This document shows, piece by piece, positions 22,570-24,934 of a DNA stretch of 64,000 bases. The stretch's first letter is position 1, and each line of letters opens with the position of its first letter. Made by a program: the position numbers and the translations under genes. The notes under the pieces are model-generated. The model ran no database searches. It had not been told where the DNA came from and was given only the letters and a program-made list of their open reading frames with translations. This DNA is from Salinirubrum litoreum. GTDB lineage: Archaea; Halobacteriota; Halobacteria; Halobacteriales; Haloferacaceae. The DNA lies in assembly GCF_020567425.1 (NCBI RefSeq), contig NZ_JAJCVJ010000001.1, positions 248,001 to 312,000 on the forward strand, in the 5' to 3' direction.

Positions 22570-22652
22570 AGAGGCCGACCGAGTCGTCGGTTCCCGTCGT
22601 CGACTGACCGCCGAACGTGGCGTTTATGCTCGCGCCTCCCTGCGAGTACGGT

Positions 22653-23714
22653 ATGCAACAGGTCGACGCGGACCTCTCGACGCTCGACCGGGCGATCATC
22701 AACGCCTTCCAGGGCGGGTTCCCGGTCACGGCTCGGCCCTTCGAGCCGGCTGCGGCCGCGCTCCGGGACCGTGGCGTGGACGTGACGAGCGACGAACTGC
22801 TCGCCCGCGTGCAAGAACTCGACGAGTCGGGTGTGCTCTCGCGGTTCGGCGCGCTGGTCAACGCCGAGGAGATCGGCGGCACCGCGACCCTCGTGGCGAT
22901 GCACGCCCCGCCGGAGCGGTTCGACGCGGTGGCAGAGCAGGTGAACGGCCACATCGAGGTCGCGCACAACTACGAGCGCGAGCACCCACACCTCAACATG
23001 TGGTTCGTCGTCTCGGTCGCCGAGGAGTCTCGTGTCGAGGAAGTCCTCGCCGAGATCGAAGCCGAGACCGGCCAGGAGACGTACAACCTGCCGAAACAGC
23101 AGGAGTTCCGCGTCGAGGCGAAGTTCTACGTCGATGGCCCGATTCCGGAGGGCGACGTGGATCTCTCGCATCTCGGGCCGGACGTGACGCCCACCGACCG
23201 CCGGACGCTCACGCCACAGGAGCGCGATCTGGTAGTCGAGATTCAGGGCGGCCTGCCGATCACCGCGACGCCCTACGCGGACGTAGCCGAGGCGATCGAC
23301 GCGGAGACAGACTGGGTGATCGAGACGATCAAGCGATTCGAGCAGGAGGGGAAGGTGCGCCGGGTCGGCGTCATCCCGAACCACTACGCGCTGGGGTACA
23401 CCGAGAACGGGATGACCGTCTGGAACGTTCCGGACGAGTTGCTCGACGAGGTCGGCCCGGAGGTCGCGGGGCTGTCGTTCGTCACGCACTGCTACCACCG
23501 CCCGCGCCACGAGGGCGTCTGGCCGTACAACTTCTTCGCCATGACCCACGGACGAAGCGACGCGGAGAGCCAGCAGCGGATTCGGGAAGTGAGAGAGACG
23601 ATGCAGGAGTTCTGGGACGTGGGCGAGGACGACTGGGACTCGCTGTTCTCGACGCGGATCCTGAAGAAGACGGGCATCAGGCTGGACGAACGAGCGGACG
23701 CGAACACGGAGTGA
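22653..23714 (+). CDS. ahbAB: Siroheme decarboxylase, AhbA-AhbB fusion
   Basis: A 353-residue protein made of two Lrp/AsnC-like halves. The first (about 1-165) has a winged helix and the HNYEREHPHLNMWF signature (about 109-122). The second (about 185-345) has its own winged helix and HCYHRPRHEGVWPYNFFAM (about 280-298). These are the substrate-binding histidine/arginine regions of AhbA and AhbB, which together decarboxylate siroheme to didecarboxysiroheme in the alternative archaeal heme pathway. The two subunits are usually separate genes. A TATA element (GTTTATG, 22623-22629) 24-30 bases before the ATG fixes the start. Precorrin-2 dehydrogenase and hemA follow downstream, supporting the role. 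Confidence 0.88.
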   Translation: MQQVDADLSTLDRAIINAFQGGFPVTARPFEPAAAALRDRGVDVTSDELLARVQELDESGVLSRFGALVNAEEIGGTATLVAMHAPPERFDAVAEQVNGHIEVAHNYEREHPHLNMWFVVSVAEESRVEEVLAEIEAETGQETYNLPKQQEFRVEAKFYVDGPIPEGDVDLSHLGPDVTPTDRRTLTPQERDLVVEIQGGLPITATPYADVAEAIDAETDWVIETIKRFEQEGKVRRVGVIPNHYALGYTENGMTVWNVPDELLDEVGPEVAGLSFVTHCYHRPRHEGVWPYNFFAMTHGRSDAESQQRIREVRETMQEFWDVGEDDWDSLFSTRILKKTGIRLDERADANTE

Positions 23715-24280
23715 GCCCGTGACTCGGATGTCGAGGCCGGTGGTGTGGTCGAAGTCGTCTGGGGCGCGAAGGTGGTCGCCGGGACTGGCAGGTGAGTCGC
23801 CGACGACAGGAGGTGAAAGCCCCCGTCAGACACAGTTGGTGTCGAGAGAGTCGGCGATAACGAGCGGTGAAAGCCCCCGCCGTCTCGACCACTGTCAGCG
23901 GCACGCTCTGACAAGCCTTCGTTCGGTTCCCTCACGAAGACGCCCGCGACTCGATGCGCGCTTCCCTCGGACTGGCGGGCAAGCCCGCCAGCCCTCAGTC
24001 CAGTGCTTACGTCGTCGGGGCGGGATCGAGATTCTGGAGAGCGAAGCTCTCCAACGTCTCGTTCACTTCGTTCACGAGACCGCCGGCCCCTTTCAGTCCC
24101 ACCCGGTGGACTCTGCGACCAATCGTGCAACACCCGGTGGCCCAGTCGGTTTCAGCGCGAGCGCCTCCCCGAACCCGCCGGCGCGACACGAGGTCGCGCC
24201 AGCCCGTTCGACTGGGAAGTGTGTCGTCGCCAGATCGATACCGGCGGCTGTCACCAACCGAAAATCGGAGGTGCAGTAGC
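23715..24280. other. 566-base non-coding gap with hairpins and direct repeats, possible MITE or RNA
   Basis: No supportable gene. A 14-base direct repeat ggtgaaagcccccg lies at 23812-23825 and 23866-23879. Four strong stem-loops follow: CTGGCGGGC-aa-GCCCGCCAG (23972-23991), TGGAGAGC-gaa-GCTCTCCA (24035-24053), a CTCGT/ACGAG stem around a doubled GTTCAC (24058-24078), and GGCGCGAC/GTCGCGCC (24180-24200). On the minus strand it reads GTGGGACTGAAAGGGGC and similar. The spacing and perfection of the stems look like a degraded IS200/IS605-type or MITE element, or a structured RNA. It is odd that it interrupts the heme cluster. Confidence 0.45.
24267..24273 (+). promoter_or_regulatory. Shine-Dalgarno that fixes the GTG start of the precorrin-2 dehydrogenase gene
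   Basis: GGAGGTG, matching the 3' end of haloarchaeal 16S rRNA, ends seven bases before the GTG at 24281. The presence of a strong ribosome binding site implies the gene is translated from an mRNA with a leader, probably read through from ahbAB or starting inside the gap. Confidence 0.7.
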
Positions 24281-24934
24281 GTGATCCCACTCTACCACGA
24301 CTTCAGCGACGAGACGGTCCTCGTCTTCGGCGGTGGGCCGGTCGGGGCGCGCAAGGCCCGCCGGTTCGCCGAGGAGGCCCGCGTCGTCGTCGTCAGCCCC
24401 GCGTTCGCCGACCGCGCGTTCGGCGACGCCGAGTTGGTCCGCGAGGCACCCGACGCCGAGGGCGTCCGCGGGTGGGTCGCCCGCGTGGGGCCGGCACTGG
24501 TCGTGGCCGCGACCGACGACCCCGACCTCAACGCGGCGGCGGCGGCGGCGGCCCGCGCGGCCGGCGCACTCGTGAATCGCGCAGACCGCTCGGGGAGCGA
24601 TCGCGACGTGGACAGCGTCGTCGTCCCGGCGACCGTCGAGGACGGGTCCGTGTCTGTCGCCATCTCGACCGGCGGCGCGAGTCCCGCGCTGGCGAAACAC
24701 CTCCGCGAGCAGATCGAAGCCGACATCGCCGACGCGGGGGCGATGGCCGAGTTGACCGCCGACCTGCGCAGCGAGTTGAAGACCCGCGATATGACGGCAG
24801 AAGAGCGACGGGACGCGGTCCGAGCCGTGGTGCGATCTCCGTCGGTTTGGAAGGGTTTACGTAGGGGCGAATCCAAGGCCCGACGAGAGGCACAGCGAGT
24901 GATACGGAACACAGTTGGGGGTGACTCGTCGTGA
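24281..24934 (+). CDS. Precorrin-2 dehydrogenase / sirohydrochlorin ferrochelatase-like (Met8/CysG N-terminal type)
   Basis: A 217-residue protein. The N-terminal Rossmann domain has FGGGPVGARKARRF (about residues 12-25), and the middle (SVAISTGGASPALAKHLREQIE, about 125-146) is the Met8/CysG dimerization signature. It lacks the uroporphyrinogen methyltransferase half of bacterial CysG. It oxidises precorrin-2 to sirohydrochlorin with NAD and may insert iron, feeding siroheme to AhbAB. The gene overlaps hemA by four bases (GTGA). Confidence 0.88.
   Translation: MIPLYHDFSDETVLVFGGGPVGARKARRFAEEARVVVVSPAFADRAFGDAELVREAPDAEGVRGWVARVGPALVVAATDDPDLNAAAAAAARAAGALVNRADRSGSDRDVDSVVVPATVEDGSVSVAISTGGASPALAKHLREQIEADIADAGAMAELTADLRSELKTRDMTAEERRDAVRAVVRSPSVWKGLRRGESKARREAQRVIRNTVGGDSS

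Follow-up and report, generated by a model that had tools for sequence, protein, structure and literature searches.

A REPIN-like family of large intergenic DNA hairpins, probably mobile, in Salinirubrum litoreum and other haloarchaea

The 566-nt island between the ahbAB-type gene and the siroheme gene of Salinirubrum litoreum (23715-24280 of the window, by which we mean the whole 64,000-nt stretch of DNA that was analysed) is probably one copy of a non-coding, intergenic family of mobile DNA hairpins that resembles REPINs and BIMEs and is widespread in haloarchaea. This reading is based on the large number of copies, the fixed ends enclosing a stem whose two sides change together, the nested modules, the tandem array at one edge and the presence or absence of the element at orthologous spacers. 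The family is best read as a non-autonomous mobile hairpin, large and modular, for which no RAYT or IS200/IS605 partner was found in this genome. An earlier, sequence-only reading of the island had offered a structured RNA, a heme- or siroheme-responsive leader and a remnant of a mobile element as alternatives; the mobile element is supported in kind, the leader is not supported, and no sign of an IS200/IS605 origin was found at the 13 such loci of this genome.

The spacer between ahbAB and the siroheme gene

The upstream neighbour of the island encodes a NirDL-like siroheme decarboxylase with two domain pairs in Pfam; the downstream neighbour starts with a GTG codon preceded by GGAGGTG and is followed by hemA (Table 1). 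The sequence-only reading had expected genes to lie close together here, and the spacer in 79 other haloarchaea bears this out, with a median of 24 nt and only 3 cases longer than 190 nt; given the 566 nt found here, something must have been inserted. The island contains no gene, as had been claimed: the codon model calls none, and a hidden protein was rejected on the grounds that the crossing open reading frames have no Pfam match. The 14-base direct repeat GGTGAAAGCCCCCG is exact at 23812 and 23866 and sits within a pair of 32-nt repeats spaced 54 nt apart, and the four stem-loops reported earlier were recovered as perfect inverted repeats between 23972 and 24200, with arms of 8, 8, 7 and 8 bp. 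Beyond that first description, the separate stem-loops proved to be parts of one long nested hairpin (23866-24104) and a second arm reaching to about 24227, and the 14-mer to belong to a tandemly repeated unit, of 54-nt period, that also occurs at other copies. Folded as RNA, the island region gives -277.9 kcal/mol (z = -3.44), a value that 0 of 100 shuffles equalled.

Table 1. Features of the window copy and of its two neighbouring genes
Feature	Position	Strand	Basis
ahbAB-type siroheme decarboxylase gene, upstream neighbour	22617-23714	+	Pfam PF17805 (2 stretches), PF22451 (2 stretches)
Left tandem array, 54-nt units starting/ending at the GGTGAAAGCCCCC motif	23758-23865	+	32-nt repeat, spacing 54
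Core hairpin, window copy, 239 nt, GGTGAAAGCCCCC to GGCCCCTTTCAGTCCCACCC	23866-24104	+	88 homologous cores; fold
Basal stem P0, 5' side TGAAAG	23868-23873	+	(near-)invariant in alignment A1
Variable stem P1, 5' side CCGTCTCGA	23880-23888	+	hypervariable yet paired in other copies
Extra hairpin module ACTGTCAG...CACGAAGACG	23891-23942	+	missing from bare copies; fold
Terminal hairpin of core, CTGGCGGG-CAAG-CCCGCCAG	23972-23991	+	perfect 8 bp arms
48-nt two-hairpin insert, P1 3' side	24032-24079	+	same place in other copies
Conserved 3' end GGCCCCTTTCAGTCCCACCC	24085-24104	+	92 copies in own genome
Basal stem P0, 3' side CTTTCA	24090-24095	+	(near-)invariant in alignment A1
Type A second arm, further hairpin CCCAGTCGG...CGACTGGG	24105-24227	+	BLAST pieces; fold
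Probable host sequence with Shine-Dalgarno of siroheme gene	24228-24280	+	inter-copy homology stops near 24227
Siroheme gene, precorrin-2 dehydrogenase type, downstream neighbour	24281-24934	+	PF13241, PF14824 (NAD_binding_7 + Sirohm_synth_M)

Copies in the genome

A BLAST search of the island against its own genome returned 104 pieces at 40 places, in which the parts of the island occur in differing combinations. The 3' end, searched as CGGCCCCTTTCAGTCCCACCC with up to 3 mismatches, was found 92 times, and a reversed-pattern control 0 times. Copies were taken as stretches with their flanks, from which 88 cores were extracted; a simple codon model predicts no gene that overlaps any of the 88, and the neighbouring genes are evenly split in orientation (23/22/20/19). 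Multi-copy matches with varied flanks are what the sequence-only reading had named as the sign of a mobile element, and matches always before the same gene as the sign of a cis-regulator; we obtained the former, with copies adjoining unrelated genes. Together with its absence from the same spacer in relatives, this supports a mobile element in kind. The three smaller contigs (C3-C5) are avoided, holding 2 of the 88 copies (P 1.7e-7), which is unusual for a mobile element and counts against the mobile reading.

Anatomy of the family

Bare cores measure 131-147 nt, and cores with nested extra hairpin modules reach 387 nt. A bare core is one long hairpin consisting of P0 (TGAAAG/CTTTCA), an internal C4/C4 loop and the variable P1, beyond which the internal loops are smaller and conserved and the terminal hairpin is variable. 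A protein hidden in the cores was rejected, as lengths of 138, 139, 140, 141, 145, 146 and 147 nt break the frame. Across the family, 22 of 25 unit pairs in the tandem array upstream of the cores keep to the 54-nt period, and no outward decay gradient was found in the array in this genome (identity 0.65-0.68). Downstream of the cores lies an arm of type A or type B, often followed by a further hairpin with the fixed loop GGGCGGTGCGGAGAG, hypervariable paired stems and then the 14-mer CGAGGCTGGGGAGG, of which this genome has 76 exact copies. The second hairpins collected downstream of cores in this genome (57, at L010, L022, L024 and other loci) have the fixed loop GGGCGGTGCGGAGA and are followed by CGAGGCTGGGGAGG; their stems come in at least 30 different versions and are nearly perfectly paired.

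The left array of the window copy has one clear unit (23812-23865), preceded by a degenerate one, and the 3' partner of P1 starts with TCGAGA at 24026. The copy carries a type A arm that ends near 24227, and a right edge at island position 513 is common to many copies. The sole A+T run of at least 5 bases in the island lies at 24261.

Seven cores are only 33 nt long, with GGTGAAAGCCCCC joined to GGCCCCTTTCAGTCCCACCC, in some cases with one or a few changes. The hairpin is gone at the same junction in all of them and the flanking array and arms are kept; deletion between the CCGGC repeats at the hairpin base could account for these forms. As a separate observation, the 3' end of tRNA-Ser(TGA) (L033, 511-596, minus strand) reads CAGTCCCACC, identical to ten bases of the 3' end of the element, probably by chance.

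Matched changes in the stems

Alignment A1 comprises 27 bare copies and 45 pairs; 96.8% of its cells pair and 22 of the 45 pairs are altered on both sides. Changes on both sides fill 167 cells; shuffling gives 50.5 and sliding the partners 11-19. Copies within a genome are paralogues and not independent, so that pair counts overstate the number of events. Covariation of this strength, along with conserved unpaired motifs, could be the signature of a structured non-coding RNA family, trans-acting or scaffold-like, that was multiplied as gene copies. Such a family would fit with the TATA-like sequences that occur in type B arms and close to some Halorubrum-type modules, and with the transcription of a PATE in Halorubrum infection data (PMC10544981). 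However, wobble pairs are scarce, about equally so on both strands: the P1 stems of this genome contain 457 Watson-Crick, 2 GU and 4 AC pairs in 468 cells, those of other genomes 380, 11 and 4 in 405 cells, and the downstream stems 8 GU and 6 AC, as against 8.9% GU in a tRNA control (only 10 tRNAs). The slight excess of GU (11) over AC (4) in other genomes could be a hint of RNA. A search of Rfam gave no family match, only a chance-level miRNA match outside the island, and the orientation of the copies is random relative to genes. We consider an RNA family, which the sequence-only reading had also proposed, unlikely.

Within cores, identical arms carry loops both ways (GAGACC-TCC, 12; -GGA, 3), and the core loop ACAAG/CTTGT is inverted between L018 and L016, whose arms are identical; only inversions inside cores were used, those downstream being set aside, where modules occur in both orientations. 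Inverted loops between identical arms are a mark of template switching (PMC8604942). From the few wobbles, the loop inversions and the deletion-like 33-nt forms we infer that the stems are kept up at the DNA level, as a palindrome homogenised by template switching, in preference to selection on an RNA.

The mobile DNA hairpin that we favour could then work as follows. The fixed ends and the unpaired inner motifs would be recognised in folded single-stranded DNA by a putative trans-acting recombinase; the stems would be kept perfect by template switching of DNA polymerase and by conversion between copies; and short direct repeats at the hairpin base would allow slippage deletions, giving the 33-nt forms. 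One copy would have landed between ahbAB and the siroheme gene, probably by chance insertion and with no specific role in heme control. The basal stem is an inverted repeat, and neither a partner transposon nor a target duplication was found.

Distribution across the order

Among 146 genomes from 57 genera of the order, 64 genomes in 27 genera contain the 18-mer GGTGGGACTSAAAGGGGC, which lies within the reverse complement of GGCCCCTTTCAGTCCCACCC (24086-24103, minus strand); its reversed control was found 0 times everywhere. Exact GGTGGGACTSAAAGGGGC ends number from 0 to about 60 per genome, with none in 82 of the 146; the carriers include Halorubrum, Haloarcula, Halorussus, Haladaptatus and Halobaculum. 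From the loci of other genomes 45 hairpins were collected that are opened by GGTGGGACTSAAAGGGGC and closed by GGGGCTTT; their 10-nt arms come in 27 different versions, and pairing over the 10 bases is perfect in 28 hairpins. Judging from three loci (L129, L137, L141), Halorubrum appears to have more copies of the 14-mer than any other genus. The spacer after hemA holds a related element in 3 Halorubrum species and is short and empty in 5.

A virus-borne element was rejected, since the 18-mer occurs in none of 2.9 million viral contigs and phages gave no match; taken by itself, the 14-mer CGAGGCTGGGGAGG has too many chance matches in viral contigs to be informative. A downstream hairpin that had appeared genus-specific with two mismatches allowed owed this appearance to an over-strict pattern. 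Two further arrangements were observed in passing. At L213-L216, in other genera, two hairpins stand back to back, inverted, with a short spacer of similar length, in the manner of a REPIN; at L203 (about 416 and 2005) two inverted hairpins flank about 1.6 kb, and the enclosed gene is not transposase-like.

Plasmid copies upstream of OB-fold-like genes

None of the matched stretches in plasmid records is annotated. Eight Haloarcula plasmids carry the hairpin at a distance of about 490-620 nt upstream of one group of genes, assigned by SOSS-B annotation in four cases, by a weak OB-fold match in one and by position and length only in three (L377, L379, L380). On a Haladaptatus plasmid about 400 nt separate the hairpin from an OB-fold gene downstream of it, and a related hairpin piece precedes such genes on Natrinema and Halorussus plasmids, which also carry 54-nt pieces 85-87% similar to the 48-nt insert of the window copy. 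The proteins of Haloarcula pNG500 and Natrinema are homologous (34% over 241 residues), and Pfam OB-fold scores for these plasmid neighbour genes are mostly below the cut-off. Seen on plasmids of several genera (L370-L373, L377-L381; L182-L184), a hairpin or piece upstream of a gene for an OB-fold, ssDNA-binding-like protein may mark a replication region.

Conserved places of this kind in some replicons, such as the eight Haloarcula plasmids, count against mobility. Along with the bias of copies toward the chromosome in this genome and the related piece that precedes homologous genes in Natrinema and Halorussus, they would suit a structural or replication-related chromosomal site, bound by ssDNA-binding or nucleoid proteins and maintained by selection instead of being parasitic. 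We regard such a site as quite unlikely, and a little less probable than the RNA family: the copy number is highly uneven, with many genomes lacking the element, one and the same spacer holds it in some Halorubrum species and lacks it in others, and the other plasmid copies adjoin unrelated genes.

Comparison with known systems

REPINs have conserved ends, and their inner sequence is free to vary if it pairs (PMC3116915). The present family is like REPINs and BIMEs (PMC3116915, PMC2817692) in being an intergenic hairpin mosaic of about 100 copies with fixed ends and an inner part that varies if it pairs, and in forming inverted pairs in some lineages. It is also a high-copy extragenic palindrome, with its 92 end motifs and cores clear of predicted genes. 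REPs, however, are 20-40 bp long (PMC3733652), whereas the bare hairpin here exceeds 130 nt and grows to 387 nt, has an archaeal host and carries tandem arrays at one edge. Instead of a GTAG/CGTC tag the ends are GGTGGGACTSAAAGGGGC and GGGGCTTTC. No RAYT-type gene flanked by repeats was found in this genome, whose 3 Y1_Tnp matches lie near contig ends, all away from the copies. Two palindromes in inverted orientation, which form the mobile unit of REPINs, are seen at L213-L216; in the window copy the second arm is a different hairpin. Because size, tag and RAYT partner differ, we did not file the family as REPIN. IS200-type transposase genes were seen at the end of contig C1 and the start of C2 (L197, L199), where the assembly probably breaks at a repeated insertion sequence.

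The PATE and SMR-A elements of Haloquadratum walsbyi (PMC3119063) are likewise haloarchaeal, transposase-free and palindromic, with small inserted repeats, and the island, too, is too short to encode a transposase. A PATE or another IS200/IS605 remnant of this type is nevertheless improbable, slightly more so than the structural site. The palindromes of PATEs are near-terminal and related to IS605-type ends, whereas here the palindrome makes up the body of the element itself, and BLAST found no similarity between the 88 copies and the 13 IS200/IS605 loci of this genome (3 Y1-transposase, 10 TnpB), none of which holds element sequence, contrary to the remnant envisaged by the sequence-only reading. 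The inserted modules differ as well, being hairpin pairs of about 48-57 nt here and about 110 bp with terminal repeats in SMR-A. Since no relation to IS200/IS605 loci was found, the family was not filed as PATE. Classical MITEs are similarly short, non-coding and multi-copy, but neither the terminal repeats of a resident transposon nor a target duplication was found here.

A heme- or siroheme-responsive leader of the siroheme gene, suggested by the position of the island and the strong Shine-Dalgarno, is highly improbable, as about 90 copies beside unrelated genes in evenly split orientations argue against a regulator tied to one gene, the element is missing from this spacer in 79 relatives, in most of which the spacer is short, and the island has no TATA-like run.

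Implications

We found no description of this family in the open-access literature searched, and an earlier mention in subscription papers is possible. Tentatively, the family may represent an order-wide class of large, modular DNA hairpins that are REPIN-like but served by a putative archaeal recombinase other than RAYT. Template switching would drive the evolution of their stems and alter both arms in step, with no selection on RNA involved. In connection with this, the OB-fold-like neighbours on Haloarcula plasmids raise the possibility of the hairpin acting as a single-strand replication site. For compact archaeal genomes, repeats this large and this numerous are unusual. Spread over 27 of the 57 sampled genera, the family would carry the REPIN/BIME idea over to archaea, where the partner enzyme would be a different one. 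It also calls for caution, as the textbook-like covariation in 22 of 45 pairs seemingly comes from the upkeep of a DNA palindrome and could be mistaken for that of a new family of RNAs.
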